From Lachnospiraceae bacterium (lineage in GTDB: Bacteria > Bacillota > Clostridia > Lachnospirales > Lachnospiraceae), in contig JAFXVI010000053.1 in the NCBI GenBank assembly GCA_017524595.1, positions 1 through 39,743 on the forward strand: 39,743 bases of DNA, given 5' to 3'. The notes beneath the pieces were generated by a model. It did not search any database. It was not told where the DNA came from and worked only from the letters and a program-made list of their open reading frames with translations. Below are positions 1-21,498 of this stretch, one piece after another. Made by a program: the position numbers and the translations under genes. Each line of letters begins with the position of its first letter. The first letter of the stretch is position 1.

Positions 1-699
1 GTATGTATCGAATGAAGAAAAAGCCTGTGCTCCTGCCCATTCGTTCTGCATTATACCCAGGAAATTAACCATCTGGTTGCACAGAACCGATAAATGAGCC
101 GCGGGAGCTGAGGTAATCTTACCTGTGATACCGCCAAGTCCTTCCTTAATAAGCTGCTTCAGCGACCAACCCGCACAGTATCCCGTAAGCATCGAAAGAT
201 CATGGATATGTATGTCCGCATTACGATGCGCATCGGCTATCTCCTGATCATATATCTCCGATAACCAGTAATTGGCAGTCACTGCTCCCGAATTGCTTAA
301 TATAAGACCGCCCACCGAATATGTAACTGTTGAATTCTCTTTGACACGCCAGTCCTCCACCTTGACATAACTGTTTACCACATCCTTATAATCAAGAATG
401 GTGGACTTCATATTGCGCATCTTCTCACGCTGCTTGCGATATAGGATATAGGCCTTGGCAACTTCGGTATAACCCGCCTGTTCAAGCACGGTCTCGACAC
501 TGTCCTGAACATCCTCGACACTTATCCTGTCCCCGTCGAGCTTGCTCTGGAAATCCGATGTCACCCTTAGCGAGAGCAGATCTATCATATCATTATTATA
601 CTGCTTCTCGCATGCATCGAAGGCCTTCATGATCGCATCGCTGATCTTACTGATATTAAAATCAGTAACCTGTCCGTCCCTCTTAACAACACTAAACAT
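1..699 (-). CDS. nrdD: Anaerobic ribonucleoside-triphosphate reductase, N-terminal part (cut by window edge)
   Basis: Class III ribonucleotide reductase makes dNTPs from NTPs in the cytoplasm without oxygen, using a glycyl radical installed by NrdG. The 233 visible residues begin with an ATP-cone allosteric domain (about residues 1-95, VVKRDGQVTDF near the start) and run into the catalytic barrel. There HIHDL (164-168), YCAGWS with conserved Cys175, and NFLGIMQNEWAGAQAFSSF (212-230) are typical of NrdD. The start ATG at 699 is preceded by GGGGAGG about 10 nt upstream. The C-terminus with the glycyl-radical motif, and any nrdG, lie outside the window. Expression is probably controlled by NrdR, because two boxes sit upstream of a strong promoter. 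The family call is very secure. Confidence 0.96.
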   Translation of the reverse strand, partial: MFSVVKRDGQVTDFNISKISDAIMKAFDACEKQYNNDMIDLLSLRVTSDFQSKLDGDRISVEDVQDSVETVLEQAGYTEVAKAYILYRKQREKMRNMKSTILDYKDVVNSYVKVEDWRVKENSTVTYSVGGLILSNSGAVTANYWLSEIYDQEIADAHRNADIHIHDLSMLTGYCAGWSLKQLIKEGLGGITGKITSAPAAHLSVLCNQMVNFLGIMQNEWAGAQAFSSFDTY

Positions 700-767
700 A
701 CCTTATACTCCTCCCCTTCTGTCAGATACGATACCCATTTCGTACACCCCTTGAATTGTAAAATCTG

Positions 768-809
768 AAAAAAAAGTACGCAGTTTGGTCCGAATCAGTC
801 AAAACCGCG
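768..809 (-). terminator. Hairpin plus eight-T run in the nrdD leader (possible attenuator)
   Basis: Reading on the minus strand, CGCGGTTT (809-802) can pair with AAACTGCG (786-779), an 8-bp stem with one G-U pair. It is followed after three bases by eight consecutive T (775-768). It lies between the predicted transcription start near 812 and the nrdD start codon, so it would act as an early terminator or as a 5'-end stabilising hairpin. The stem is modest and the loop is 15 nt, so termination is uncertain. Confidence 0.4.
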
Positions 810-818
810 ACTAGTGTT

Positions 819-847
819 AGTATAGCATTGAGGTTTTTAAAAGTCAA
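819..847 (-). promoter_or_regulatory. nrdD promoter, sigma-A type with extended -10
   Basis: On the minus strand TTGACT (847-842) is separated by 17 bp from TATACT (824-819). A TG one base before the -10 makes it an extended -10. Transcription should begin near 812, giving a leader of about 113 nt before nrdD. Confidence 0.85.
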
Positions 848-854
848 CGTGAAA

Positions 855-902
855 ACACAAGATATTATGTGGCTTTTTTGATACAAACACTATATCTTGT
901 GG
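855..902 (-). promoter_or_regulatory. Pair of NrdR boxes upstream of nrdD
   Basis: ACACTATATCTTGTGG (887-902) and ACACAAGATATTATGT (855-870) resemble the NrdR box consensus, roughly acaCwAtATaTwGtgt. The two 16-mers start 32 bp apart, close to three helical turns, which is the known arrangement for cooperative binding of the ATP/dATP-sensing repressor NrdR. The nearer box ends 8 bp from the -35 element. The second box is the better match; the first deviates at several positions. Confidence 0.8.
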
Positions 903-939
903 TTTTTATGTTAACCCGATCATGTGATTTTTTAAGGTC

Positions 940-979
940 AAAAAAACCCCTTCTTCACTATAAAAATGGGGGAAGGGGT
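940..979 (-). terminator. Second terminator downstream of the TPR lipoprotein gene
   Basis: On the minus strand ACCCCTTC (979-972) pairs with GAAGGGGT (953-946) and is followed by a run of seven T (946-940, the first within the stem). The 18-nt loop is long. It lies 137 nt after the TPR gene stop and just before the nrdD control region, so it insulates nrdD. Confidence 0.6.
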
Positions 980-995
980 CAATGCAAAAGAGTCA

Positions 996-1022
996 AACAA
1001 AAATCGACCAACTTGGTCAATT
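996..1022 (-). terminator. First terminator downstream of the TPR lipoprotein gene
   Basis: Minus-strand AATTGACC (1022-1015) pairs with GGTCGATT (1009-1002), an 8-bp stem with one G-U pair and a 5-nt loop, followed by TTTTGTTTG. This is a compact intrinsic terminator about 95 nt after the stop codon of the TPR gene. The core is also a near-perfect 13-bp palindrome (1006-1018) that could alternatively be a protein-binding site. Confidence 0.6.
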
Positions 1023-1116
1023 GTTAAAAGTATACAAATTTGTTTTTCTGATTTGTACATTATTATCTTTCAGCTTCTATCCTCTGATCAGGAACGGAGG
1101 ACTGTTATACGCTCCG

Positions 1117-2169
1117 TCATCTCGTGCTAAGGAAGATGTATTCCCTTTGCGCTTCCTCATCACCGGGATACTTTTCCAGATATTCCTTCATAAGCACCCC
1201 TGCCTTTTTAAAATCAAGAAGATACTCATATGCAACCGCTTCATTAAACCGAAGGCTCTGGTCATATGAAGGATCGTTAAGAGCTATGCCGTTTTCAAAA
1301 GAATTAAGAGCCTTCTGATATTCCTTTTGCTTCAGGCTGATAAGGCCCAGTTCATTATAAACAGCTGCGCTGTCCTGATGTTCCTCAAGATAATCCGAAT
1401 AAAGCCCGGTAGCATAACTGACATCTCCCAGCGCTTCATAGGACTTGCCAAGATATAATATGATCTCTTCTGTATCTCCGTCGGTCCTTGCCTCCTCAAA
1501 ATAATTTCTCGCCTCATCATATTTTCCAAGGTAATAAGAAAACATTCCCGATTGATATGCCGTCATCTTGGAGTTTTTCGAAAGAGCTCTGCTGATATAG
1601 TCTTCACCCTCCGCTTTCATGCCTGCCGCATCGAGTGCCTGATAAATGCATATATACATGTCCAGGTCTCCAGGTTTCAACTCAACCGCCCTGTCAAAAT
1701 CACTGATGGCACTTTCTTTATCATTCTTAAGAAGCTCAACCCTTCCCCTGAGATAGTGGGCATCCGGCGAGCGCTCATCGAGACTTAAGATAGCATTATA
1801 GGTATCAAGCGCCTCATCCAACTCGCCACACTTATACTCTGCCATGGCCAGATAAAAGTTTATATCATAATCAACCTTTTTAACCAATCCGTTGGAGGCC
1901 TTCAATGCCTGTTCAAACGCTTCTATCGCCTCCTCGTATCTTCCCTGTCCCATATAGGCAATACCCATGCCGCGATATGTAAGGCGTTTATCCTCCCCTT
2001 CTTTAAGCGCATTATCAAAACATGCAACGGCCATTGAATAATCCTGCTGTTCGATCGCATCCATTCCCTGGTTTATGTTTTCTTTGCCGCCCCCGATGTC
2101 ACAGCCGCCAAGCACTGCCGCAACCGCAACACAGCATACTGTTTGTATAAACTTCCTTCTGCTTATCAT
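1117..2169 (-). CDS. TPR-repeat lipoprotein of unknown specific role
   Basis: A 350-residue exported protein. The N-terminus has a signal peptide ending in lipobox LGGC (Cys23), so lipid anchoring on the outer face of the membrane is expected. The segment SRRKF at residues 3-7 also resembles a twin-arginine motif. The rest, from about residue 30, is a string of tetratricopeptide-type helical pairs, for example NQGMDAIEQQDYSMAVACF, AYMGQGRYEEAIEAFEQAL and ELGLISLKQKEYQKALNSF. That fold makes a protein-binding scaffold and does not give a specific function. The frame stays open another 70 codons upstream, but the ATG at 2169 is chosen because the signal peptide begins there and the promoter lies at 2212-2240. 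The ribosome site is weak. It is divergent from the TraX-like gene. Confidence 0.85.
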   Translation of the reverse strand: MISRRKFIQTVCCVAVAAVLGGCDIGGGKENINQGMDAIEQQDYSMAVACFDNALKEGEDKRLTYRGMGIAYMGQGRYEEAIEAFEQALKASNGLVKKVDYDINFYLAMAEYKCGELDEALDTYNAILSLDERSPDAHYLRGRVELLKNDKESAISDFDRAVELKPGDLDMYICIYQALDAAGMKAEGEDYISRALSKNSKMTAYQSGMFSYYLGKYDEARNYFEEARTDGDTEEIILYLGKSYEALGDVSYATGLYSDYLEEHQDSAAVYNELGLISLKQKEYQKALNSFENGIALNDPSYDQSLRFNEAVAYEYLLDFKKAGVLMKEYLEKYPGDEEAQREYIFLSTR

Positions 2170-2211
2170 CTCTTGAATTCTTTCATAATATGTAAGAAAT
2201 ACTACGTGTTT

Positions 2212-2240
2212 AGTATAACCGACTTTTATATGTTTTACAA
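2212..2240 (-). promoter_or_regulatory. Promoter of the TPR lipoprotein gene
   Basis: Minus-strand TTGTAA (2240-2235), 17-bp spacer, TATACT (2217-2212). Its -35 shares five bases with the -35 of the opposite TraX promoter. The predicted leader is about 36 nt. Confidence 0.7.
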
Positions 2241-2262
2241 TAACAGCCGCCCGTGCTATAGT
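2234..2262 (+). promoter_or_regulatory. Promoter of the TraX-like gene (predicts a leaderless mRNA)
   Basis: TTTACA (2234-2239), 17-bp spacer, TATAGT (2257-2262). The expected start of transcription, about seven bases after the -10, coincides with the ATG at 2269. No Shine-Dalgarno sequence precedes that ATG, which fits a leaderless transcript. Confidence 0.65.
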
Positions 2263-2268
2263 ATATTC

Positions 2269-3021
2269 ATGTCTGAAACGGAAAAAATACTGCAAAAGAA
2301 ATTTTTCAGCGGCAGCACGCTTAAGATCATTGCCTGCATCAGCATGTTTATAGATCATACATTCTATGTACTCATGCATACATACAGGAGCTACATATCA
2401 TCCCTTGATTATGTTTCCATACAGCATTTCAACAGGATATATATATTCGGACGCAACGTAGGACGCGTAGCCTTCCCCATATTCTGTTTTCTTCTTGTTG
2501 AGGGATTTTTCCATACGAAAGATATAAAAAAATATTTGCTGCGGCTCCTTATAATGGCCTTTATTTCCGAGCATGCTTTTAATCTTCTCTATTCAGGGCA
2601 GCACTTTGACAGGAATGGTCAGAATGTATTCTTTACACTGTTCATCTCTCTGCTTACCATCTGGGGGATTGATACCGTTCTGAAAACAGAGAAGCTGCTC
2701 CCCGCAATATCTTCAATACTCATTGCCATCATTGTGCTTGCAGGATGCCTTGCAGCCTATTTTCTTAAGACCGACTACTCATATCACGGAGTAATGTCAG
2801 CCATCGTGTTCTACTTCCTTCACCAAAGCCTGTTACTTGCATGTCTTGGAGGAGCTGTTACATTTATATGGGAACCATGGGCGATCACTGCGATCCTTCC
2901 TATATTCCTGTACAACGGTAAGCGAGGGCTTAAGGCTAAATATATCTTCTATATATTCTATCCACTTCATATTTACATCATTTACTGTTTCATCAATTAT
3001 GTACTATACAAGAACCCCTGA
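2269..3021 (+). CDS. TraX-family integral membrane protein
   Basis: A 250-residue polytopic membrane protein. The N-terminal stretch (about residues 14-32: FSGSTLKIIACISMFIDHT) and the following GRVAFPIFCFLLVEGFFHTKDIKKYLLRL match the TraX family, named for the F-pilin N-acetylating factor but widespread in Firmicute chromosomes, where its substrate is unknown. About six to eight hydrophobic segments follow and the protein ends shortly after the last one. The frame is open 42 codons further upstream, but that part overlaps the divergent promoter and the start of the TPR gene. ATG 2269 is preferred because it directly follows the -10. There is no ribosome site. Acyl transfer to a cell-surface molecule is a family-level guess only. 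Confidence 0.82.
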   Translation: MSETEKILQKKFFSGSTLKIIACISMFIDHTFYVLMHTYRSYISSLDYVSIQHFNRIYIFGRNVGRVAFPIFCFLLVEGFFHTKDIKKYLLRLLIMAFISEHAFNLLYSGQHFDRNGQNVFFTLFISLLTIWGIDTVLKTEKLLPAISSILIAIIVLAGCLAAYFLKTDYSYHGVMSAIVFYFLHQSLLLACLGGAVTFIWEPWAITAILPIFLYNGKRGLKAKYIFYIFYPLHIYIIYCFINYVLYKNP

Positions 3022-3042
3022 GCATAATGCCCAGGGGTTCTT
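3010..3042. terminator. Hairpin shared by the converging TraX and DUF3048 genes
   Basis: A perfect 11-bp inverted repeat (3010-3020 with 3032-3042; arm AAGAACCCCTG) has an 11-nt loop and contains the TraX stop codon. Only short T stretches flank it on either strand, so it may be a weak bidirectional terminator or a 3'-end stabiliser. Confidence 0.6.
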
Positions 3043-3070
3043 ATCATAAATGAAATCTTTTGATCACCGT

Positions 3071-4201
3071 TTACTCAATAGACAATCCACTCCAGATATC
3101 ATCGGGAACCAGCGCAACATATGTGCGTCCAGTATTAAGAACTATCTCGTTGCCGTCCTTATCATAATACCTGGTAGGCGTAAGCTCATCCTCCTTGGTC
3201 CATGTTACCGGAATGCACTTACCATTTGTAATATAATATCCGTCACGGTTAAAATCGATCGAATGGAACATCATGTATCCGTTGGCATCAAACTGTACAT
3301 AGCGGCAGTTCTGGATCAGTATGTTCTTAAATGAAAGCTGTGTATCACCGTTTCCGGGATCCGTATGCTTGTTTCCATACTCCGAATACAGATAAGTTCC
3401 GCTTCCTTCATCATAATCCATATACGGCTTGTTGTGCTTATAAGGCATCTGGATATGTGTAGCAGATTTCGTATCCGAGTACTGGCTAAGATCATTGGGC
3501 TTGCTTGCCGAGGTAAACTGGTAATGCGGACCGGGATAATAATCATTATATGTTCTAGAATACTTGGGATGACTCTCAAAGTTCTTGTCTATATCACCCT
3601 CAAGTATATACTCGGTAAACTCCCTTGACTTACCATTATTGACACGCGAGAATGTACCGCTGAAATTCTCGACATAATCCTTAGCCATGTAATCATCAAT
3701 ATAGAACGGTCCACCGTCATGACATATTACAGCATTCCATTCAGGTACTATCTGTAGGTTTGTCGGCCTTACGCTTCGGATACTTCCTATCTGTTTAATG
3801 CTGTTATAATCCTTGAACAACACCATAAGACGCGTAACACCGTCATTGGCGGTACTGTTGGTCATCTCATAAACAACATCCGACTGTGATACTCCGTAAT
3901 GAGGAAGTGCCGTCTTCTCATTATCGATCATTACAGCTATGGGTCTCTGTTCCTTAAGTGCCTCATCTATCCATTCGTTTGTCAACTCACTTCTGTACAT
4001 GCCGGGACGGACTTCTTCATCATCGCTATCAACAGAAATAGCATCTGTCGGTGACGCATCGTCATCTGTTACAACCTGTATGACCGGTTCGTTACTTGAT
4101 GTGTCCGGTTCACCTGCAGGCGCCTCTTCCTCCGCACTGCATCCAGCCAGCGCCAACGCTGTTGTCAGCGCAAACAACAGGAAAAAATTTCTTTTTTTCA
4201 T
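3071..4201 (-). CDS. DUF3048 (YerB-like) lipoprotein
   Basis: A 376-residue exported lipoprotein. Residues 1-21 form a signal peptide with lipobox LAGC (Cys21). An acidic, Ser/Thr/Asp-rich linker of about 50 residues follows. The globular part contains PIAVMIDNEKTALPHYGVSQ, VYEMTNSTANDGVTRLM and IGSIRSVRP, which are hallmarks of the DUF3048 N-terminal domain. The C-terminal domain carries NCRYVQFDANGYMMFHS and VPVTWTKEDELTP-type segments (here IPVTW). The family is common in Firmicutes and its biochemical role is not established. The ATG at 4201 is chosen because GGGAGG lies 11 nt upstream; an ATG nine codons earlier overlaps that ribosome site. It has its own extended -10 promoter. Confidence 0.9.
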   Translation of the reverse strand: MKKRNFFLLFALTTALALAGCSAEEEAPAGEPDTSSNEPVIQVVTDDDASPTDAISVDSDDEEVRPGMYRSELTNEWIDEALKEQRPIAVMIDNEKTALPHYGVSQSDVVYEMTNSTANDGVTRLMVLFKDYNSIKQIGSIRSVRPTNLQIVPEWNAVICHDGGPFYIDDYMAKDYVENFSGTFSRVNNGKSREFTEYILEGDIDKNFESHPKYSRTYNDYYPGPHYQFTSASKPNDLSQYSDTKSATHIQMPYKHNKPYMDYDEGSGTYLYSEYGNKHTDPGNGDTQLSFKNILIQNCRYVQFDANGYMMFHSIDFNRDGYYITNGKCIPVTWTKEDELTPTRYYDKDGNEIVLNTGRTYVALVPDDIWSGLSIE

Positions 4202-4257
4202 GATTAATATTGCCTCCCTTGTAATCATTTAAAACCCCAAATCACACTACCTTATCT

Positions 4258-4266
4258 ATTTTACCA
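4258..4266 (-). promoter_or_regulatory. Extended -10 promoter of the DUF3048 gene
   Basis: Minus-strand TGGTAAAAT (4266-4258) is a TGn-extended -10 element. The -35 region is poor (TGACTT at 16 bp). It lies between the end of the SGNH gene and the DUF3048 start and gives a leader of about 50 nt. Confidence 0.5.
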
Positions 4267-4313
4267 AATAATCTTGTATAAGTCACTGAAAAAATACACA
4301 AGTTTTAGATTTT

Positions 4314-5303
4314 TTATCGATCATGTTTAATATATTTGCCGATAAATTCCTCTGTATACAGCTTTGCGCCCTTCTCATTTAAATGAGATGAATCACCAAA
4401 ATACATATTATCATAACAGGGAATATCGGTTTCAAACAGTATTTCGGGATTATCGTTCGCAAACCTGTTGATATAGCCTGCATACTCTCTGACATATCCC
4501 GGATCCAGCCTGCTATATGAAGCCTCATTCATCGGAGGCTGAAGCACAACGGTGTCTATCCCGTTGCGTGAACACAGCTTGAGTAATCTTTCAAAATAAT
4601 GCGTTATCAAAAGATGCTCCCCTCCCCTGTTCATTTCTGTATAGTTGGCTTCATAATTGATATCATCGCATCCGTCGGCAGTCCCGTAAAGCGCATGCCC
4701 GCGATCACTTACCTGCCGCTCATACAGTTCTCTGTTAACACTAAGCCTTCCATTCCCTCTTGAATTGATAAGCGCAGGGAGATAACTGTCGGGAAGCCGC
4801 AGATACATGCTCAATATATCAAACCTGTCAAAATCATCCAAAACCTCAGCACCATAGGATCTTCCCTGTGAATACACATTCATCGCTTCACTGAAAGTCA
4901 GATGATGAAAATACATTGTCCTGGTCTCATAATTGTCCATATATGAATAATGGAACGGCGCAAACATTATGACTACACGCTTTGGAACACCGTTGTTTGT
5001 TATGTAATGCTCAAGCGTATAATACATTTCAACAGATGTGGCTCCTCCGATCCCAAGGTTTACATAATCTTCTCCCAGCATTTCGGGAACCAGATCTGCC
5101 ATCGCCCTTGAATCACCCAATATCAATGATGCTCCTCCAATGCCTGTGGCTTCCCTGCCTTCCTGTACCATCTTCGTATAGTGCCAGGAAGGATATTCCT
5201 CATCCATGTAACCCATGGGATTAAGAAAAGTATATGCAACCACTGCAATGAGCGGAACAAGTGCCAATATGCATTTTGCCGTGAATATAAGCAACCGTTT
5301 CAT
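4314..5303 (-). CDS. Membrane-anchored SGNH/GDSL-like acyltransferase or esterase (DltD/AlgX-like role)
   Basis: A 329-residue protein with one N-terminal transmembrane segment (about residues 7-27) and an extracytoplasmic SGNH-hydrolase-like domain. LILGDSRAM holds the nucleophile candidate Ser65, and GDSSH near the C-terminus gives the Asp304/His307 pair. Blocks such as NLGIGGATSVEMYYTLEHY fit the family. Its ATG directly abuts the stop codon of the upstream MBOAT gene (TAAATG), so the two are translationally coupled. Such MBOAT plus SGNH pairs move acyl groups from the cytoplasm to an exported polymer, as in DltB/DltD, AlgI/AlgX or PatA/PatB. The polymer here is unknown. Confidence 0.85.
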   Translation of the reverse strand: MKRLLIFTAKCILALVPLIAVVAYTFLNPMGYMDEEYPSWHYTKMVQEGREATGIGGASLILGDSRAMADLVPEMLGEDYVNLGIGGATSVEMYYTLEHYITNNGVPKRVVIMFAPFHYSYMDNYETRTMYFHHLTFSEAMNVYSQGRSYGAEVLDDFDRFDILSMYLRLPDSYLPALINSRGNGRLSVNRELYERQVSDRGHALYGTADGCDDINYEANYTEMNRGGEHLLITHYFERLLKLCSRNGIDTVVLQPPMNEASYSRLDPGYVREYAGYINRFANDNPEILFETDIPCYDNMYFGDSSHLNEKGAKLYTEEFIGKYIKHDR

Positions 5304-6764
5304 TTAAAACCCCTGATACAAAAACTCCTGAGTAGACAGATTGCAGGAAAAAATTATCATTGTAAAAATAAGATAATATACGCACCACCTGGCAACAACC
5401 GGCGTCCTGTCAAGCAATGAATATACTTCGCAGTTTTTCTTTTCACACATTATGTCAACCATCAACAGCACTATAAGCGCTACAATTACAAATATAAGAT
5501 TAAGACTCCCAAGGCCAAGACCCGTTATGGTACCATCGGTAAGCTGCGAAAGCCTGATGCCCGTAAAGGTCCTGCGAAGCTCATCGATCGCAGTCATAAC
5601 GTTTCCCGCACGGAAAAATACCCATGTCACGCTGACAAGCGCATAGGTATATGCAATGCACAGTACCCTTCCCATCCCTTCCTTACTGCTCAGCTTAAGG
5701 AAACTTCCTGCCTTTTCCTTAAGCGGCAAAAACACATATCCAAGCACCTGGTATATTCCGAACAATATACCCCAAATGAGGAAGTTAAGGGTGGCACCAT
5801 GCCAGATCCCGCTAACGGCAAATACGATCATAATATTTATATAACGTCTAAACGTTCCCTTCCTGCTGCCGCCAAGAGGTATATACAGATAATCCCTGAA
5901 CCATGTAGACAGCGAAATATGCCATCTGCGCCAGAAATCCGAAACGGATACAGCCAGATAAGGTTGTCTGAAATTACGCATGATCTTAAAGCCCATGACT
6001 CTTGCAGCGCCTATGGCGATAAATGAATACCCTGCAAAATCACAATATATCTGAAAGCTGTACGCGATAAGGGCAACGATCATCGGTATCCCCCGGTAAC
6101 CTCCCAAAAACCATCCTTCACTGACAGCACCCGTGCCCGAATAGACAAACTCAGTAAGTATGCTCAACCTTCCTACTATCACCATCTTAAGAAAATATCC
6201 CCATAACATCATGAACAACCCTTCCTTAACTCTCACCGGATCCCATTCATGTTTCTCATTTATCTGAGGTATCAGATTCTTTGCTCTCTCGATAGGACCC
6301 GACAGTATGCAGGGAAAGAACGAAACGAACAGTGCATATTTAAGGATATTATGCTCGGGCTCCACTTCTTCCCTGTAGCAGTCCACGATATAGGTAAGCG
6401 ACTGAAAAGTATAGAATGATATGCCGGCCGGAAGGAGCAGACTGAATTCCCGCTCCGTCTCAAACAGTGACAGGATAAAATCTGAATATTTGAAATACAT
6501 GAGTATGAACAGATTGAGCACAAAGCCCGCACCGACATACAGACGCTTCTGCCCCTGCGTTTCAGCATTGTAAACAAGACGTCCCGCAGACCATGTTATC
6601 ACTGTGGAAACCATAAGAAGAACTGTGGCTGACTGATCCTGACATGCATAGAAAAAATAGCTGCCAAGCAGCAGCCATATATATCTGTACCTGTGCGGGA
6701 TCAGAAAATACAATATCACTACAGCAGGAAAAAAGAGCATAAAAGGAAGTGAATTGAATAACAT
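5304..6764 (-). CDS. MBOAT-family membrane-bound O-acyltransferase
   Basis: A 486-residue polytopic membrane protein of the MBOAT family (AlgI/DltB/PatA type), with about ten hydrophobic segments. Diagnostic blocks are SFYTFQSLTYIVDCYR, FPCILSGPIERAK, DFAGYSFIAIGAARVMGF, then FWRRWHISLSTWFRDYLYIP (conserved His282) and SGIWHGATLNF (His322, the usual catalytic histidine). It should carry an acyl group, commonly acetyl, across the membrane and hand it to the SGNH partner encoded immediately downstream. ATG 6764 follows GGGGAGG by 7 nt; the 22 upstream in-frame codons lack a ribosome site and cover the promoter. There are no dlt genes alongside, so D-alanylation is unlikely. Confidence 0.94.
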   Translation of the reverse strand: MLFNSLPFMLFFPAVVILYFLIPHRYRYIWLLLGSYFFYACQDQSATVLLMVSTVITWSAGRLVYNAETQGQKRLYVGAGFVLNLFILMYFKYSDFILSLFETEREFSLLLPAGISFYTFQSLTYIVDCYREEVEPEHNILKYALFVSFFPCILSGPIERAKNLIPQINEKHEWDPVRVKEGLFMMLWGYFLKMVIVGRLSILTEFVYSGTGAVSEGWFLGGYRGIPMIVALIAYSFQIYCDFAGYSFIAIGAARVMGFKIMRNFRQPYLAVSVSDFWRRWHISLSTWFRDYLYIPLGGSRKGTFRRYINIMIVFAVSGIWHGATLNFLIWGILFGIYQVLGYVFLPLKEKAGSFLKLSSKEGMGRVLCIAYTYALVSVTWVFFRAGNVMTAIDELRRTFTGIRLSQLTDGTITGLGLGSLNLIFVIVALIVLLMVDIMCEKKNCEVYSLLDRTPVVARWCVYYLIFTMIIFSCNLSTQEFLYQGF

Positions 6765-13552: not shown

Positions 13553-15244
13553 TCACAGCTCAACGGCATATACATGTCCTCCGGCAAGCTTATCCGTATA
13601 CTCCTCGTAAGGAAGTGGCTTGTCGAACAGATAACCCTGTATCATTGTACAGTTCATATCCTTAAGTATCCTTGCCTGTTCTGCAGTCTCACAGCCCTCA
13701 GCTATAACCTCCATGCCCAGTCCGGTCACCATCGACATGATGGAACTTAAGATCACACGGTCTTTGGAATCTTTGACAGTGATGTCGTCGATAAATGATT
13801 TGTCAATTTTGATAACATCTACATTAAGATCTTTAAGAAGGCTTAGTGAAGAATATCCGGTACCAAAATCATCTATGGAAATGCATATCCCCTGTTCACG
13901 TAATTCGTTAATATATTTCTCAAGGGTCATATAGTCTTCAGAACTAGCACTTTCGGTCAGCTCTATCTCAATAAAGTCAGGATTGATCCTGTATTTCTGA
14001 ATAACGTTTATAACATCATCGATCAAATGAGGATTGCGAAGATGAAGCTTGCTGAAGTTGACCGATACACGCGCCGGGACTATGCCCTGTCCGGTCCAAT
14101 GTCTTATATTCTCACATACCCTTTCCAGAACATAGAAATCAAGATCGCAGATAAGTCCTTCTTTTTCAAGCACAGGAACAAAACCGGCAGGGCTTATTAT
14201 CTGATCGTCGCGTTTCCAGCGTACCAAAGCTTCACAGCCGCATATCTTACCAGTAAGGCTATTAACCTTAGGCTGATAATATACAAGAAATTCCTTGCGT
14301 GTCAGAGCGGTCCTGAAGTATGAGATGATCTGCCTCTCATTGTTGGCGCGTTCAAGTATTTCCGGACGGAACCACACAACTTCCGAATCACAGACCTGCT
14401 TGGCATATACTAATGATGCGCTGGAACGGCTTAAAGCTTCACCGATGTTATTAATATGCGCCGGTATCGGATAGACACCCGAACGGGCCGAAATCCCGAG
14501 TGCACGTGTCTGATTATCAAGGACCACCGTTATATTTATCTTGGATATATAATTAAGATAGTTGTCGACATTCTCATTCTTAAGAAGTGCAACAAAATTG
14601 TCGCCGCCGAAACGTGCTATGATCTCATCCTGTTTATAGAAATTCAAGAGCCGGCTGCCGTATTCCTTAAGAACAGTATCGCCGGCCTGGCTTCCAAAAG
14701 TCTGGTTAATATAGTTGAAGCTCTTAAGATTTGAAAAAACAACGGTATATTGGTTCAGGATACCCTTAATGCTTAACTCCTGACTGAACTTCATGAAGTA
14801 TGTAGTATTCGGAAGCATAGTCAGGTAATCGGTCAGCTGACGCATATTGAGCATTTCTGTTACGCGTGCCTTTGCCAGGACTACATACATGTTTTTTATA
14901 AGAAAATCAAGTGCCGATTTTTCCTCCTCATTCCATTTATAACCGGCAACCGGAAATACTGCAAAGCTTACGTTGCCCTTGGCAGGGCTTTTAAACATAC
15001 GCGTATGTGCGAGCAGTTCAAAACCCAGAGGGGATTCATAGAGTACGCGAAAATCATTCAGGCCGACAGCATCGGCGCTGCTTGGCGGGATTTCAGTCCT
15101 TATCTCAAACTTTCCGAGATGCATTTCATCTGATATATTCAAAAGCGCTCCGGGAATGAGATTGACGATATCTTCAGCAGATACGGTTTCAGCTTGCAGT
15201 GCATTATAGAATTGTCTATATCCTTCGCTGCATAATGTTGTCAT
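13553..15244 (-). CDS. Degenerate GGDEF plus intact EAL domain protein (probable c-di-GMP phosphodiesterase)
   Basis: A 563-residue soluble protein. Residues 1-125 are an N-terminal sensory region I do not recognise. The GGDEF domain (about 140-300) has RFGGDNF at 211-217, so the catalytic glutamate of GGDEF is Asn and cyclase activity is not expected. The EAL domain (about 305-555) is complete: CEALVRW (Glu338), IEIELTES, DDFGTGYSSL (458-467), VIKIDKSF, AEGCET and QGYLFDKPLP. It probably hydrolyses c-di-GMP to pGpG, possibly tuned by GTP at the GGDEF site. ATG 15244 is preferred for its GGAG 10 nt upstream; another ATG at 15265 lacks a ribosome site. It is likely co-transcribed with the helicase. 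Confidence 0.9.
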   Translation of the reverse strand: MTTLCSEGYRQFYNALQAETVSAEDIVNLIPGALLNISDEMHLGKFEIRTEIPPSSADAVGLNDFRVLYESPLGFELLAHTRMFKSPAKGNVSFAVFPVAGYKWNEEEKSALDFLIKNMYVVLAKARVTEMLNMRQLTDYLTMLPNTTYFMKFSQELSIKGILNQYTVVFSNLKSFNYINQTFGSQAGDTVLKEYGSRLLNFYKQDEIIARFGGDNFVALLKNENVDNYLNYISKINITVVLDNQTRALGISARSGVYPIPAHINNIGEALSRSSASLVYAKQVCDSEVVWFRPEILERANNERQIISYFRTALTRKEFLVYYQPKVNSLTGKICGCEALVRWKRDDQIISPAGFVPVLEKEGLICDLDFYVLERVCENIRHWTGQGIVPARVSVNFSKLHLRNPHLIDDVINVIQKYRINPDFIEIELTESASSEDYMTLEKYINELREQGICISIDDFGTGYSSLSLLKDLNVDVIKIDKSFIDDITVKDSKDRVILSSIMSMVTGLGMEVIAEGCETAEQARILKDMNCTMIQGYLFDKPLPYEEYTDKLAGGHVYAVEL

Positions 15245-15249
15245 GTTTA

Positions 15250-15278
15250 TTGCGCTCCGTGACATAAAAAGATATACT
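15250..15278 (+). promoter_or_regulatory. mtnA promoter
   Basis: TTGCGC (15250-15255), 17-bp spacer, TATACT (15273-15278). The leader of about 60 nt is too short for a SAM riboswitch. Confidence 0.6.
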
Positions 15279-15279
15279 A

Positions 15280-15308
15280 ATACTATCATGAAACGGGCTA
15301 AAAAACAA
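15280..15308 (-). promoter_or_regulatory. Promoter of the GGDEF-EAL gene
   Basis: Minus-strand TTGTTT (15308-15303), 17-bp spacer, TAGTAT (15285-15280). The -10 is only one base from the -10 of the opposite mtnA promoter, so the two start sites overlap. The match is moderate. Confidence 0.45.
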
Positions 15309-15346
15309 TGAGAAAGAACCAAATATCAACAACAGGAGGTTGCAGA

Positions 15347-16399
15347 ATGGACAATATACTGGATTACGATACCGTTACGCTTGATGAGGAGGATAATACT
15401 CTTGAAATAATCGATCAGACACAACTCCCATACAGGACTCAGATACTGAAACTTACTGAAACAAAGGACATTTGGGATGCGATCTATCACCTTAAGGTAC
15501 GAGGTGCCCCTGCGATAGGTGTTGCGGCTGCGATAGGTCTTTATATCGCATCCACGCAGGCTGATACAGATGATATTGAGGAATTCCTGAATTATGTCCG
15601 TGAGAAAAAAGAATACTTAAACAGCGCCAGACCCACGGCAGTCAATCTTTCCTGGGCACTTGAACGGATGGAGAAAGTATGTCTTGATAACAGGAATCTC
15701 GACATTCCGAAAATATGCAGTCTGCTCAAACAGGAAGCGCTTAAGATAAAGGCTGAAGACACGGAAATGTGCTACCGTATCGGAGAAAACACGCTTGGCC
15801 TGCTTGATAAAGGATACGGTCTGCTTACTCATTGTAATGCAGGACAGCTCGCAACATCCAGATACGGTACAGCCACATCAGCCATGTATCTTGGATATGA
15901 GAGAGGGTATGGTTTCAGGATATACTGTGATGAGACCAGGCCGCTGCTTCAGGGTGCCAGACTGACAGCTTATGAACTTTCATCAGCCGGAATGGATGTA
16001 ACTCTTGTATGCGATAATATGGTGTCTTCGTTAATGAGGCAGGGACTCATTAATGCCGTGCTCGTAGGATGTGATCGTGTGGCAGCTAACGGAGATGTTG
16101 CAAATAAGATAGGTACATCTGTGGTTGCGACAGTGGCAAGGCGGTATAACGTACCGTTTTATGTATGCGCACCATCATCCACGATAGACCTTAGCACTGC
16201 ATCTGGAAACGATATAGTGATAGAACAAAGGCCTGCGGAAGAAGTAACAGAAATGTGGTATGAGCGACGTATGGCGCCTGATAATATCAAGGTGTATAAT
16301 CCTGCTTTCGACGTCACGGACCACGAACTAATATCGGCTATAATTACAGAAAAGGGAGTGATCCGAGAGCCGTATCTTAAAAACCTGAAAGGATTTTAG
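15347..16399 (+). CDS. mtnA: S-methyl-5-thioribose-1-phosphate isomerase
   Basis: This 350-residue isomerase converts methylthioribose-1-phosphate to methylthioribulose-1-phosphate in methionine salvage. It belongs to the eIF2B-like fold. VRGAPAIGVAAAIG is the family signature, LLTHCNAGQLAT holds the catalytic Cys163, and VGCDRVAANGDVANKIGT holds Asp243, matching the Cys/Asp pair known in the Bacillus enzyme. ATG 15347 is preceded by a perfect AGGAGG 8 nt upstream. No other mtn gene is present, which suggests either a scattered pathway or a shortened salvage route. It is divergent from the EAL gene and convergent with the permease (4-bp gap). Confidence 0.95.
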   Translation: MDNILDYDTVTLDEEDNTLEIIDQTQLPYRTQILKLTETKDIWDAIYHLKVRGAPAIGVAAAIGLYIASTQADTDDIEEFLNYVREKKEYLNSARPTAVNLSWALERMEKVCLDNRNLDIPKICSLLKQEALKIKAEDTEMCYRIGENTLGLLDKGYGLLTHCNAGQLATSRYGTATSAMYLGYERGYGFRIYCDETRPLLQGARLTAYELSSAGMDVTLVCDNMVSSLMRQGLINAVLVGCDRVAANGDVANKIGTSVVATVARRYNVPFYVCAPSSTIDLSTASGNDIVIEQRPAEEVTEMWYERRMAPDNIKVYNPAFDVTDHELISAIITEKGVIREPYLKNLKGF

Positions 16400-16403
16400 A
16401 TCT

Positions 16404-17486
16404 TCAGAGTGTCAGATCGCCTTCATGTATCCATCCGATCTTCCGAAACGCCTGCCCAAAGAGCCATGTGAGGACAGCGGGCAGGACGAAACAGATCAGA
16501 ACAAGGCCGATCCAGTCAAATGCAGTTATGGAGGCTTTGGTACCGGCTGCGATATCGTTTATCCATCCGGTATATACACCTATCTGCCCCACGAGGCCGC
16601 AGGTACCCATACCGGATGAGATTGCCTCTCCGTTCATCTGCATACGGAAAACACAGGTTGCTACAGGTCCGGTTATGGCTGAAGTAAGGATGGGGGGGAT
16701 CCATATCCTCGGATTTTTGACAATGTTGCCCATCTGGAGCATGCTGGTTCCTATCCCCTGTGAGATAAGACCTCCGACTCTGTTCTCTTTATAACTCATA
16801 AAGGCAAAGCCTACCATCTGTGCACAACATCCGGCAACTGCAGCACCGCCCGCAAGCCCGGTAAGAGAAAGCGCAGCACATATGGCAGCCGAACTTATCG
16901 GAAGAGTGAGTGCGATACCAACTATCACCGAAACAAGTATGCCCATCACAAACGGATGCAGTTCCGTAGCCCACATGATCAGTCGTCCGACTGAGCTGGC
17001 CGCCGCTCCTATGGCCGGAGCAAGTCCTATGGACAGCAGCACTCCAATACCTATAGTTACAAGAGGAGTCACCAGTATATCGATCCTGGTCTCTTTGGAT
17101 ATCATCTTGCCAAGCTCGGTAGCTATGATCGCGATCACCAATACCGCCAGCGGCCCTCCTGCACCTCCAAGGGTATTTGCGGCACTTCCTACGGCAAGCA
17201 TTGAAAACAGTACAAGATTGGGAGCCTTAAGGGCATAGGCTATAGCAACAGCCATTGCGGGACCCGCAACTCCCTTGGCATACCCGCCCATATCGATCAG
17301 AATCTGTACACCGAACTGCGTTCCTATGGTCGAAAGGATCGTGCCAATAAGAAGTGACGCGAACAGACCGCTTGCCATCGCACCCATCGCATCAATAAAG
17401 TATCTTTTCCAGGATATCTCTATATCCTTTTTTTTAAGAAAGGCCTTGAAACCTCCCTGTGCTCCGGTATTATTATTTTCACTCAT
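16404..17486 (-). CDS. PTS EIIC-like permease (EIIC_2 type), without EIIA or EIIB
   Basis: A 360-residue, very hydrophobic, Gly/Ala-rich protein with about nine or ten membrane segments. Blocks such as GGYAKGVAGPAMAVAIAYAL, GGAGGPLAVLVIAII and LPISSAAICAALSLTGLAGGAA, and the conserved KNPRIWIPPILTSAITGPV, fit the stand-alone PTS EIIC family 2, commonly annotated as a PTS sugar transporter subunit IIC. No phosphorylation domain is attached or adjacent, so it may be a regulator, a facilitator or a partner of other PTS proteins. ATG 17486 has GAGGAG 5 nt upstream. It starts 19 bp after the EIIC-EAL gene and is probably in the same operon. Confidence 0.82.
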   Translation of the reverse strand: MSENNNTGAQGGFKAFLKKKDIEISWKRYFIDAMGAMASGLFASLLIGTILSTIGTQFGVQILIDMGGYAKGVAGPAMAVAIAYALKAPNLVLFSMLAVGSAANTLGGAGGPLAVLVIAIIATELGKMISKETRIDILVTPLVTIGIGVLLSIGLAPAIGAAASSVGRLIMWATELHPFVMGILVSVIVGIALTLPISSAAICAALSLTGLAGGAAVAGCCAQMVGFAFMSYKENRVGGLISQGIGTSMLQMGNIVKNPRIWIPPILTSAITGPVATCVFRMQMNGEAISSGMGTCGLVGQIGVYTGWINDIAAGTKASITAFDWIGLVLICFVLPAVLTWLFGQAFRKIGWIHEGDLTL

Positions 17487-17505
17487 GATAACTCCTCAAA
17501 TCCGT

Positions 17506-19668
17506 TTATTCTTCCGTTACTGCAAACATATTATTCCGTTCATCAAGCGCCCGCTCCCCGAGTTCTTTAAACTTTGAAAGCGGTATGGCAGGACTGTACA
17601 GATATCCCTGATAAATATGGCATCCCACATCTTCAAGAGCTTTGCGTTGTTCTTCTGTTTCGACATATTCTGCTATCGTCTCTATGTTAAGTCCTTCGGT
17701 GAGGCGGGATATTGATGAGATGATCTCCCGGCTCCGTTCGTTGAAGACATCACGGCTTATTCCGCCATCGAGCTTGACTATATCGAATATGCTCGACTGG
17801 AGATACTTGATCGAAGTATTTCCCATTGAGAAGTCATCTATACCGAAGGTATAACCCAGCGTCTTGATCCGCTGCAGCCTGGCTATAAAGTTGTCATCCA
17901 CCTTAAGGGTTGCCTGTTCCGTGATCTCAATGAGAACATGCTTACACTTGCCGGGATAGATAATGTGAAGGTTCTTTAAGAAGTCCTCAAACTCATCTGT
18001 CTGGATAGTGATACCCGTTACATTTATTGAGATATGGAAGTTCTCATCCTCCTTGTATTTAAGCAGTTCATCAAGATGCCTGAATACTGTCAAGAAGATC
18101 TTTTCCTCAAGTTCTGTAAGCCTGTTAAGTTCCTCTGCCAGTGCTATAGCAAGCGGAGGATATATCGGTCCATACTGTTCATGTGTCCAGCGCAACAAAG
18201 CTTCGGCTCCGATAAGTACATGTTCCTCGTTGAACTGCGGCTGGTAATACAGCACAAAATCATCACTGTCAATATAGTCGCTCAGTTCGGCTGCCAGCGT
18301 CCTTGCTATCCTGCCGGGATCACCCGGAAGAGTCAGGAACTCAACAGGTTCACGGCTTTCCTCACATTCCTTGAGTATATCCTCAAGTAGTCTGACCTTC
18401 TCATGCGAATTCATGAACTTGATCCGGTCGTTTATCCTGACAAAAGGAAAATATATAAGAGTTCCGACGATTATACATACTATCTGAAGCACGGAACCCG
18501 CTACCGAACCGGTAGCAATATATCCGCCAAAGATGATCGGCGTCGTCCAGTTGACTGCATGTGTAGCTACAGGAACTAGCCCCAAAGCCATTGCACAATA
18601 GCATATCAGTATATTAGCGATCGGAGCAAGCAGGAAAGGTATCAGAAATACCGGGTTGAATATTATTGGCAATCCCAGTATCAGCAGCTCGTTTATATTA
18701 AATATCATGGGTATGGAAGCTGTACGTGCAAGAAACTTGTCATTCTTCTGCTTACTGAATATAAGTAGCGCGATTATCAAAGACCAGGTGGAACCGCAGC
18801 CACCAAGCAGAACAAAGACATCTATAAACACACCGGTAAGTATCGGATCAAGGCCGCTAGCCGGCTTATTTATGTAATCAAGTGCAACATCAAATATCTG
18901 GTATTTGATCTCACCGAGTGCATCCGAACCATGTATTCCACACATCCACATCAGATTCTGCAACAGTTCAAAACGTATCAGATTGGCCAGACTGTTTCGT
19001 GTGTTTATGAAAAGGTTCTTGAACCATCCGGTAAGAAGGACATAGAAACTCTTGTAGCCCATGGTCACAAGTCCCAGATTGATGATCGCAAAGAACTCAA
19101 GAACAATTATCATCGGAAGCAGTGAGATCAGTATGGTGGCGAAATCGGTGCTTATCCCGTCAACATATTTGCGGCTCTGAAAGACGATCTTGTTAAGCAG
19201 CAGGATATAGATATATGCAGACAGCATACCGCACAATATGGCGGTCAATATGTTCTTGGGGCCTAACAGGTCAAGATTGATCGAATCGGGATTATTGAAA
19301 ATACCTGAAATTATGAAAAAGCCCACAAGTGAAGTGATGATCACCGCCAGCCTGTGCGATGCTTTGCCGTAAATCCTGTTTACACTGTCAGCTACGGCTA
19401 TGGTCATGAACACAGACAGCATGTCATAAGTGGCAAGATGAATGAACCTGAGCATTTCATACAGAAGTCCTTCAAAGGTATCATGAATAAAACTCTGATA
19501 TGCAGGAATCGGAAAGTTGATAAGCACCTGAATAAAAGCACTGATAAGAAAAACAGGTATCAGGGATTCAAGGCTTTCGCTCAGGAGCTTAATAGGTTTG
19601 GCTCCGGAAGTCATCTTGAAAATATAAAGAATCTTTCTCCTGAATGTCTTGAAATTGAGCTTGTTCAT
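17506..19668 (-). CDS. PTS EIIC sugar-channel domain fused to a cytoplasmic EAL domain
   Basis: One uninterrupted 720-residue frame. Residues ~20-412 are a full EIIC domain of the cellobiose/lactose (CelB/ChbC) type with about ten membrane segments. WMCGIHGSDAL (His246) and IPMIFNINELLILGLP (Glu327) correspond to the sugar-binding His and Glu of ChbC-like channels, and NWTTPIIFGGYIATGS is typical. After a charged linker (~413-465), residues ~470-705 form an EAL domain: YYQPQF, AEALLRW (Glu489), SINVTG (Asn549), IEITEQ (Glu581), DDF (Asp611/612), VKLDG (Lys632), AEYVE (Glu670) and YQGYLYSPAIP (Gln687). Metal and substrate residues look kept, but loop 6 reads DDFSMG rather than DDFGTG, so hydrolysis is uncertain. 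ATG 19668 is preferred over GTG 19677. A sugar-sensing c-di-GMP phosphodiesterase or effector is inferred. Confidence 0.93.
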   Translation of the reverse strand: MNKLNFKTFRRKILYIFKMTSGAKPIKLLSESLESLIPVFLISAFIQVLINFPIPAYQSFIHDTFEGLLYEMLRFIHLATYDMLSVFMTIAVADSVNRIYGKASHRLAVIITSLVGFFIISGIFNNPDSINLDLLGPKNILTAILCGMLSAYIYILLLNKIVFQSRKYVDGISTDFATILISLLPMIIVLEFFAIINLGLVTMGYKSFYVLLTGWFKNLFINTRNSLANLIRFELLQNLMWMCGIHGSDALGEIKYQIFDVALDYINKPASGLDPILTGVFIDVFVLLGGCGSTWSLIIALLIFSKQKNDKFLARTASIPMIFNINELLILGLPIIFNPVFLIPFLLAPIANILICYCAMALGLVPVATHAVNWTTPIIFGGYIATGSVAGSVLQIVCIIVGTLIYFPFVRINDRIKFMNSHEKVRLLEDILKECEESREPVEFLTLPGDPGRIARTLAAELSDYIDSDDFVLYYQPQFNEEHVLIGAEALLRWTHEQYGPIYPPLAIALAEELNRLTELEEKIFLTVFRHLDELLKYKEDENFHISINVTGITIQTDEFEDFLKNLHIIYPGKCKHVLIEITEQATLKVDDNFIARLQRIKTLGYTFGIDDFSMGNTSIKYLQSSIFDIVKLDGGISRDVFNERSREIISSISRLTEGLNIETIAEYVETEEQRKALEDVGCHIYQGYLYSPAIPLSKFKELGERALDERNNMFAVTEE

Positions 19669-19981
19669 ATCTCTCACCCTACTGAAAAATATGGTGCATC
19701 CGCATAGAAATACAGATTTAAGTACACCGTAAAGATTATTTTATCTTATTTAAAATAGTTATGCACTGAAAATAAGACTTAATTTATAAGTATTTTTATA
19801 AGATTGCATGAAATTTTTATGAACATAACCAAAAATACTGAAAATACGCTTATGGAGTTTTGAGGCATTCATAAAACTGTTGGCAAATAGTGATAAAACC
19901 ACTCATTGGGTCATAGCATGAGTAGACATAATGCACAAATACTTGGTGTTTTGGCTGCCGCAAACCACCATATGTTGATTC

Positions 19982-20010
19982 TTGACAATGAAATGACCAT
20001 GGTGTAAAGT
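19982..20010 (+). promoter_or_regulatory. Candidate promoter of the HPr-like gene
   Basis: Perfect TTGACA (19982-19987), 17-bp spacer, TAAAGT (20005-20010). A better -10, TATAAT, lies 17 bp further on without a good -35. The leader would be about 125 nt, including the palindrome at 20080-20101. Confidence 0.5.
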
Positions 20011-20079
20011 GCTATAAACCATATAATAAGGTATCGTAGAGTGACGAACTCCTTACGGTGCCTTTAAAACCGGTATTTA

Positions 20080-20101
20080 TCATAAGAAGAAGTTCTTATG
20101 A
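20080..20101 (+). other. Perfect 9-bp inverted repeat in the leader of the HPr-like gene
   Basis: TCATAAGAA and TTCTTATGA flank a four-base centre (GAAG). In RNA this is a stable tetraloop hairpin; in DNA it is an operator-like dyad. It lies 43 bp before the GTG start and is not followed by a T run, so it is a regulatory candidate rather than a terminator. Confidence 0.5.
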
Positions 20102-20144
20102 CAGGGGCTCGTTTATAAGTAATACAGGAAAGGGGTGCATAAGA

Positions 20145-20369
20145 GTGAAGGAGTGTAAGATTAAGCTTAATTTGAATGATGCATGCGAATTCGTTCAGAA
20201 GGCCTCGAAGTGTGATTTTGATATTGACATTTTTTACAATCGTTTTGTGATCGATGCGAAATCAATCTTAGGCGTTCTGGGACTGGATTTTTCAAGGGAA
20301 CTTACCGTTCAGTACGGCGGCGAGAACCAGGAATTCTCCACAATGCTTAACAGACTTGCAGTCGGATGA
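20145..20369 (+). CDS. HPr-like (Crh-type) protein lacking the phosphorylatable histidine
   Basis: A 74-residue protein with the HPr fold pattern. FVQKASKCDFDIDIFYN aligns with the HPr helix 1/strand 2 region (FVQTASK in Gram-positive HPr), and IDAKSILGVLGL aligns with the HPr Ser-46 loop. In the usual GxHARPA loop, His15 is replaced by Asn9, and the Arg and Pro are also lost, so it cannot take phosphate from enzyme I. Ser40 matches the regulatory Ser46, the target of HPr kinase. This resembles Crh, which acts in carbon catabolite control with CcpA. GTG 20145 follows AGGGGTG by 7 nt. It is divergent from the EIIC-EAL operon. Confidence 0.8.
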   Translation: MKECKIKLNLNDACEFVQKASKCDFDIDIFYNRFVIDAKSILGVLGLDFSRELTVQYGGENQEFSTMLNRLAVG

Positions 20370-20391
20370 AAAGATGAAGCACGTATATAAC

Positions 20392-20423
20392 AGGGAGCCG
20401 CGGATATAAATACGCGGCTCCTT
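20392..20423. terminator. Hairpin between the converging HPr-like and prfA genes
   Basis: A perfect 9-bp stem (20394-20402 with 20413-20421, arm GGAGCCGCG) can be extended by a G-U and an A-U pair. On the plus strand it is followed by TTTCGT, a weak T run; on the minus strand there is none. It lies 7 bp before the end of prfA. Confidence 0.65.
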
Positions 20424-20430
20424 TCGTATA

Positions 20431-21498
20431 TCATTCCATCTTGGATAATTTCGCTGCCTGGTCTGCGGCAATACATGCATCCAGTATTTCCTGGATATCA
20501 CCGTTCATTACCTTATCAAGCTTATATAATGTAAGATTTATCCTGTGATCTGTAACCCTTCCCTGAGGGAAGTTGTAAGTCCTGATCTTCTCAGAACGGT
20601 CACCCGTACCTATCTGGCTCTTCCTTAACTCAGCCTCTGCATCATGAGCCTTCTGCTGTTCTATATCATACAGTTTCGCGCGGAGCAGGGCGAACGCCTT
20701 CTCTTTATTCTGGAGCTGCGACTTCTCGGTCTGTGAATAAATGACAATTCCTGTAGGATAATGTGTAAGACGGACCGCCGAATCTGTCGTATTTACGCAC
20801 TGACCGCCATTACCGGACGCGCGCATCACGTCTATCCTTATATCCTTTTCATCTATCTGGACATCCACTTCTTCTGCCTCCGGCATCACAGCAACAGTTA
20901 TCGTCGAAGTGTGTATGCGTCCGCCCGATTCAGTCTCCGGAACACGCTGTACACGGTGTACTCCGCTTTCGTATTTCATCACGGAATATGCGCCCTGTCC
21001 GTTTATCATAAATGTAACGCTCTTCATTCCGCCTATGCCTATTTCTTCGACTTCAAGCGTCTCCACCTTCCATCGTCTTCCTTCGGCATAATGTACATAC
21101 ATCCTGTATATCTCGGCTGCAAACAGCGCGGCCTCGTCACCGCCTGCGCCCGCACGTATCTCAACTATGACATTCTTATCATCATTGGGATCCTTGGGAA
21201 GAAGAAGGATCTTAAGCTTATCCTCCAGTTCTTCAACATTTTTCCTGGCATTTGACAGCTCCTCCTTAAGCATCTCCTTCATATCTTCGTCGGATTCATC
21301 TGAAAGCATAACCAGAGAATCTTCTATATCCTGTTTGTTCTTCTTATACTCCTTATAAGTCTCAACTATCGGAGCAAGATCGCTCTGCTCCTTCATGAGC
21401 GCACGGAAGCGCTGCTGGTTATCGGCAACACCCGGCTCATTCAGTTCATTCATTATATCTTCATAGCGCATTATAAGATCGTCAAGTTTATCAAACAT
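20431..21498 (-). CDS. prfA: Peptide chain release factor 1
   Basis: A 355-residue release factor that recognises UAA and UAG and triggers peptide release at the ribosome. The PxT codon-recognition motif is in [15 protein letters not shown]. The catalytic GGQ is in [17 protein letters not shown], with Cys rather than His after GGQ. The length is standard. It is last in the run rho-rpmE-DUF1385-prmC-prfA, next to the methylase that modifies the GGQ glutamine, the usual pairing. The ATG at 21498 has a purine-rich GAGAGGG rather far upstream (11-12 nt). Confidence 0.97.

Follow-up and report, generated by a model that had tools for sequence, protein, structure and literature searches.

The locus analysed here raises the question of what a sugar-transport domain of the phosphotransferase system (PTS) is doing in one chain with an EAL domain, i.e. 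whether its EIIC half still serves transport or has become the input of a c-di-GMP phosphodiesterase. The gene (17506..19668, minus strand) lies in a Lachnospiraceae contig (JAFXVI010000053.1, assembly GCA_017524595.1), of which the whole stretch of 39,743 nucleotides was analysed and is called the window hereafter. It encodes 720 aa from an ATG at 19668 in a single frame, and the sole stop codon of this frame is the terminal one, at the 17506 end. An in-frame GTG at 19677, upstream of the ATG, would give 723 aa if used. Since this GTG sits inside the ribosome-binding-like AGGGTGAG (19673..19680, minus strand; read from the sequence), which precedes the ATG, the latter is preferred as start. 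Residue numbers refer to P0001, the GTG-started translation, and exceed those of the preliminary description by three.

The protein consists, in this order, of a lactose/cellobiose-type PTS EIIC membrane domain (18406..19593, residues 29-424), an approximately 40-residue linker of near-constant length (18292..18405, residues 425-462) and an EAL phosphodiesterase-type domain (17578..18291, residues 463-700), all on the minus strand. Both Pfam domains scored above their cut-offs, i.e. PTS_EIIC (PF02378) at residues 38-352 with an E value of 9e-26 and 91.1 bits (cut-off 30.7), and EAL (PF00563) at residues 464-696 with an E value of 1.4e-48 and 165.7 bits (cut-off 31.3). The match to the NCBIfam lactose/cellobiose EIIC family TIGR00410 reached 204.1 bits, below the cut-off of 236. 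Among solved structures, the EIIC half is closest to 3qnq (ChbC; E 2.8e-41), and the second half to EAL domains. As the preliminary description had stated, the two domains are joined in one frame, with neither EIIA nor EIIB attached; the protein is intact, and the minus strand is an addition to that description, which gave none.

An assembly error, or two separate genes, can be ruled out by the single frame, by purifying selection and by 54 other intact fusions, which align along the full length. These include the fusion at the sister locus L009, from an independent goat-rumen Lachnospiraceae bacterium MAG, with 79% protein identity overall. Between the two genes, dN is 0.13 and dS about 2, i.e. 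near-saturated, and their linkers are 90% identical. Within the window, no known RNA, riboswitches included, was found at the Rfam gathering threshold, and a scan of positions 16200-20500 returned promoter-like and terminator-like sequences at about chance level (11 vs 9.7 expected and 3 vs 3.2 expected, respectively).

The searches for relatives scored three to at most six candidates per genome, and one of them, the class draw, took only matches with E <= 1e-60; the counts of fusions and of stand-alone EIICs are lower bounds. Full-length matches were found in at least 37 of 299 genomes drawn from the family, the window's own included, i.e. 36 intact fusions and one interrupted by a stop (G143). 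The phylum draw of 398 genomes contributed at least six intact fusions (in the window's own genome, G641, G673, G670, G444 and G500) and a broken frame in G663. At least 15 intact fusions came from the class draw of 391 genomes, those of the window's own genome and G673 among them; a further class-draw candidate, in G714, runs off its contig end. Over all draws and L009, this amounts to at least 55 distinct intact fusions. Their distribution across the family genomes is patchy, and no fusion was found in G193, the only genome of the same genus in the family draw.

Based on the phylogenetic relationship of the EIIC domains, the fusions stand apart. In an IQ-TREE analysis of 100 EIIC rows under LG+F+R5, from which the contig-edge rows L092 and L151 were left out, the 55 EAL fusions, two broken fusions and two fusions to a histidine kinase grouped as one exact clade (UFBoot 97) to the exclusion of the 41 stand-alone EIICs, the latter having been chosen by similarity to the fused EIIC and representing its near relatives, not a random sample. 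FastTree recovered the same split with 86 rows (support 0.97) and with 102 rows (support 0.989); the contig-edge row L092 grouped with the stand-alone EIICs in the former and with the fused ones in the latter.

The two sides of this split also differ in their PTS partners. Lac-type EIIA (PF02255) occurred in 6 of 57 fusion genomes, two of which carry broken fusion frames; by batch, these are 5/42 (G143 belonging to the 42), 0/2 (L009's genome and G663) and 1/13. All six positive genomes, i.e. G253, G015, G046, G033, G077 and G976, hold a stand-alone EIIC as well. The same domain was found in 29 of 30 genomes with a stand-alone EIIC (14/15 and 15/15, G145 being the sole miss) and in none of 38 genomes for which the search had turned up no lac-type EIIC. 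Comparing 6/57 with 29/30 in a Fisher test gave 4e-16, a value that is only indicative, the genomes being related. For the 13 new fusion genomes it had been predicted in advance that G976 alone would be PF02255-positive, and it came out so.

In the window's own genome (1.73 Mb, 60% complete), of which the window is contig 102, neither PF02255 nor EIIB (PF02302) was found in the part searched, and EI and a true HPr are present; L009's genome had no PF02255. Of 42 fusion genomes, 20 lack EIIB and the other 22 have it in some form; in 12 of these 22, all matches lie within frames of 634-706 aa and would therefore belong to other multidomain proteins. EI (PF05524) was absent in 6 of the 42 (G224, G092, G641, G670, G444 and G500, 91-100% complete). 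Among the 16 genomes searched for HPr, which include these six, G641, G670 and G444 lack it, and G224, G092 and G500 hold one copy each. The earlier remark that classic PTS transport would require partners in trans can thereby be made more precise, as 51 of the 57 fusion genomes yielded no Lac-type EIIA.

The gene neighbourhoods were compared with frames of at least 80 aa, in a search that detects only relatives of genes already confirmed. No EIIA/EIIB cluster was found beside a fusion in the loci with flanks. The near stand-alone EIICs L099-L103 adjoin the gene clusters c3, c4 and c5, which by reading of the sequences would be EIIA, EIIB and a LevR-like regulator, and PF02255 matches lie inside all five loci. 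In 7 of 41 fusion loci, an adjacent signalling gene lies on the same strand at a gap of 6-128 bases, encoding a GGDEF or GGDEF-EAL protein in L041, L043, L117 and L126 and an MCP in L107, L130 and L134. A GGDEF gene likewise lies upstream in L105, which stands outside this count, the fusion frame there being masked by an antisense frame.

Within the window, a gene for a PTS_EIIC_2 (PF13303) membrane protein (16404-17486, minus strand) lies on the same strand, 19 bases past the fusion stop. It was considered as a conserved partner and rejected, since of 42 loci the window and L009 alone have it in a cluster next to the fusion. An HPr-like ORF (20058-20366, plus strand), divergent from the fusion, matched PF00381 at 26.2 bits (cut-off 23) over profile positions 13-62 only. 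Its translation is without any histidine, and therefore it could not carry the usual phospho-His. Similar weak, late-starting HPr matches were found in 9 of 16 genomes searched, the window's own included, and this ORF, too, was discarded as a partner, since it adjoins the fusion in no locus but the window and L009. A GGDEF-EAL protein is encoded nearby (13553-15322, minus strand), with a gene on the other strand in between (15308-16399), which we take to be MtnA-like; the order is the same in L009.

A comparison of the 55 fused with the 41 stand-alone EIICs shows which parts of the domain have been kept. The pocket residues His249 (18931..18933, minus strand; ChbC H250) and Glu330 (18688..18690, minus strand; ChbC E334), as aligned with 3qnq, are retained in 52/55 and 53/55 fusions, and in 33/41 and 40/41 stand-alone EIICs, respectively. 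The same holds for W244 (53/55 and 37/41), N327 (54/55 and 35/41) and W377 (54/55 and 38/41). In ChbC, the equivalent of Glu330 presumably faces the phosphorylated hydroxyl. The divergent fusions L045 (4950-7040) and L046 (4962-7082) have lost both pocket residues 249 and 330 and kept the EAL catalytic set; perhaps their EIICs bind another ligand.

Other positions have been lost. At 13 positions, a letter conserved in at least 85% of the stand-alone EIICs is present in less than 40% of the fusions; these are located within residues 169-186, at 222-223, at 331 and at 376. Residues 169-186 (19120..19173, minus strand) form a loop and the start of the next helix, a block that most stand-alone EIICs conserve and the fusions have lost. 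The strongest differences are at four positions: P176 is found in 38/41 stand-alone EIICs and 0/55 fusions, F183 in 39/41 and 4/55, P222 in 41/41 and 1/55, and P376 in 40/41 and 0/55. The window protein reads R169, V172, S176, L222, L331 and N376 where stand-alone EIICs have I, P, P, P, P and P. Counted over ten such marker letters, 42 of the 55 fusions keep none, 12 keep one and a single one keeps four, compared with nine or ten kept in 36 of the 41 stand-alone EIICs and four to six in the other five. The loop near residue 169 comes after the fourth hydrophobic stretch; taking the N-terminus of the EIIC fold to be inside, this loop would be cytoplasmic.

From this we infer that the lost sites may have served EIIB docking or transport. 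ChbC itself, in the 3qnq alignment, is without prolines at 331 and 376, and three of the five stand-alone EIICs with few marker letters (L074, L075 and L077) have a divergent loop, yet lie in EIIA/EIIB operons with a Lac-type EIIA; therefore, loss of the loop block alone is no proof of lost EIIB docking. On the whole, the sequences provide evidence of a departure of the fused EIIC clade from the PTS.

The EAL half is predicted to be of the c-di-GMP phosphodiesterase type from its family score and its complete set of catalytic and metal residues. E492, N552, E584, E587, D614, D615, G619, S622, K635, D637, E670 and Q690 are invariant in 55/55 fusions, and position 673 is E in 50/55 and D in 5/55. 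A loss of catalytic residues, as in degenerate EAL receptors of the FimX/LapD kind, is not the case in any of the 55. All residues that had been named in the preliminary description are present, i.e. His249, Glu330, Glu492, Asn552, Glu584, Asp614/615, Lys635, Glu673 and Gln690, and loop 6 (residues 614-619; 17821..17838, minus strand) reads DDFSMG as claimed. The canonical DDFGTG is absent from all 55 fusions: 53, with M618, carry DDF[S/G/A]MG, L145 carries DDYGKG and L149 DDFGVG. Other EAL domains matched by a motif scan read GTG, GSG or GAG in 10/10 cases, and four more M-bearing rows of that scan represent fusions or fragments of broken ones. Loop 6 of Escherichia coli PdeK, an annotated phosphodiesterase, is DDFGMG. 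Domains that function although some of their signature residues deviate are on record (PMC12900916), and EAL enzymes are activated by dimerisation, which moves the DDFGTG loop (PMC5301497).

Between F412, where the last EIIC helix ends, and Q479 of the EAL domain, the distance is 67 residues in 39 of the 55 fusions, with a range of 65-70. This near-fixed spacing would fit a mechanical coupling of both halves, short of proving it. The two kinase fusions carry another output. L047 (G104; 2345-5395, minus strand) combines an EIIC of the same clade with HisKA, HATPase and receiver domains, and L150 (G1023; 3001-5244, plus strand) with HisKA and HATPase, the EIIC N-terminus being in a separate frame. 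They are sisters (UFBoot 100) and nested with the EAL fusion L022 (100), which suggests one exchange of EAL for a kinase within the EIIC clade. Therefore, EIIC is likely to be the input in both types of fusion. No Lac-type EIIA was found in G1023; G104 holds both a Lac-type EIIA and a stand-alone EIIC, and its L047 carries Gln in the place of His249. Directly before the EIIC-kinase gene of L150, positions 1-2517 (plus strand) encode binding-protein-like, histidine-kinase-like and receiver-like sequence, as read from the translation.

Considering these results, the fusion is probably a one-component, transporter-derived sugar sensor that would control an EAL c-di-GMP phosphodiesterase. Its EIIC half would have retained the Lac/Chb-type disaccharide pocket and given up work with EIIA and EIIB, and, judging from ChbC, its ligand would probably be a disaccharide with a beta linkage, e.g. 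cellobiose or chitobiose. Binding of the sugar may shift an EIIC dimer between conformations, a movement that the last EIIC helix and the near-fixed linker would pass on to the EAL domain, where activity would depend on dimer geometry and loop 6, so that the rate of c-di-GMP hydrolysis could change in either direction. The preliminary description had proposed such a one-component sensor in the form of an occupied sugar channel coupled directly to c-di-GMP breakdown. The sensor finds strong indirect support in the clade split, the missing Lac-type EIIA, the loop residues lost with the pocket kept and the kinase swap; the term channel is to be dropped, EIIC being an alternating-access carrier fold. 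For the clade as a whole, we lean towards receptors that would be independent of the phosphorelay even without EI or HPr, with a c-di-GMP phosphodiesterase and a histidine kinase as interchangeable outputs, such that saccharide occupancy would directly set a second messenger or a phosphorelay. Some points count against a sensor: retention of Glu330 would also be expected of a working permease, non-Lac EIIA and EIIB could serve in the genomes that keep EI, and 5 of the 41 stand-alone EIICs likewise keep just four to six of the ten marker letters. The patchy distribution of the gene, the absence of PF02255 from the stand-alone-EIIC genome G145 and the pocket residues lost in L045 and L046 also count on this side.

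Some of these points would suit a transceptor, in which EIIC still moves sugar, either with the EIIB of another PTS or, unphosphorylated, through facilitated diffusion, and the EAL domain reads the flux. The pocket residues, Glu330 included, are kept, the window's own genome retains EI and a true HPr, and some EIIB occurs in 22 of 42 fusion genomes. However, 12 of these 22 have their matches just in the 634-706-aa frames, Lac-type EIIA was not found in 51/57 genomes and EI is absent in 6/42, the marker letters of stand-alone EIICs are lost and no EIIA/EIIB cluster adjoins the fusions, which makes transport by the fusion unlikely. Coupling in the reverse direction, i.e. an EAL domain that merely binds c-di-GMP and gates the carrier, had been raised in the preliminary description on account of DDFSMG. 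Loop 6 does differ from DDFGTG in 55/55 fusions, yet this is a weak sign of an EAL domain that gates and has no catalysis: the residues for catalysis, metal binding and loop stabilisation do not vary in 55/55, DDFxMG is shared by 53/55 and PdeK itself has DDFGMG. As the kinase fusions of the same EIIC clade, moreover, point to EIIC as the input, we regard this direction as very improbable.

The phosphorylation sites of the PTS lie on EI, HPr, EIIA and EIIB, and none is on EIIC. This general knowledge, the missing Lac-type EIIA in 51/57 genomes and the absence of EI in 6/42 leave hardly any room for an EIIC domain that reports the PTS phosphorylation state to EAL, even though a review of 2022 classes the PTS_EIIC of c-di-GMP proteins among the phosphoreceiver domains (PMC8846402).

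If the sugar-sensor reading is correct, the fusions would show how a transporter turned into a receptor, since the loss of partner-related residues can be followed from position to position, and the filing of EIIC as a phosphoreceiver in c-di-GMP proteins would change. Many c-di-GMP enzymes respond to signals that have yet to be found; in this case, the input fold has solved structures, a known ligand class and a kept pocket, and therefore the signal can be guessed and directly tested. A C. difficile c-di-GMP paper of 2011 may mention such proteins, so prior notice is conceivable. The pairing of EIIC and EAL domains as such is already in print, as a rare one: the 2022 review counts Pfam architectures of PTS_EIIC with GGDEF, EAL or HD, and PTS_EIIC is a rare partner there (PMC8846402). 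Its treatment, as far as that part of the review goes, is one paragraph with the phosphoreceiver wording, compared with the phylogeny, partner analysis and residue test given here. A clade-wide departure from the PTS and a kinase swap were not found in the literature, in a search covering open-licence papers.

Carrier folds as inputs of signalling enzymes are known from CbrA-type sensors, which combine an SLC5 transporter domain with a histidine kinase. These differ from the EAL fusion in both the carrier superfamily and the output, and a nearer parallel is found in L047 and L150, where EIIC is joined to a kinase. The permease 3qnq ('PTS system, cellobiose-specific IIC component') shares the EIIC fold and the His and Glu of the pocket with the fusion, but is without an enzyme domain and retains the KMP..VPP loop block. 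In Vibrio cholerae PdeS (PMC6877527), sugar availability likewise controls an EAL phosphodiesterase, there in trans by a soluble phosphorylated PTS protein, EIIA-Glc. In contrast to PdeS, the fusion carries a membrane sugar-binding domain in the same chain, and the partners of a phosphorelay are often missing from its genomes.
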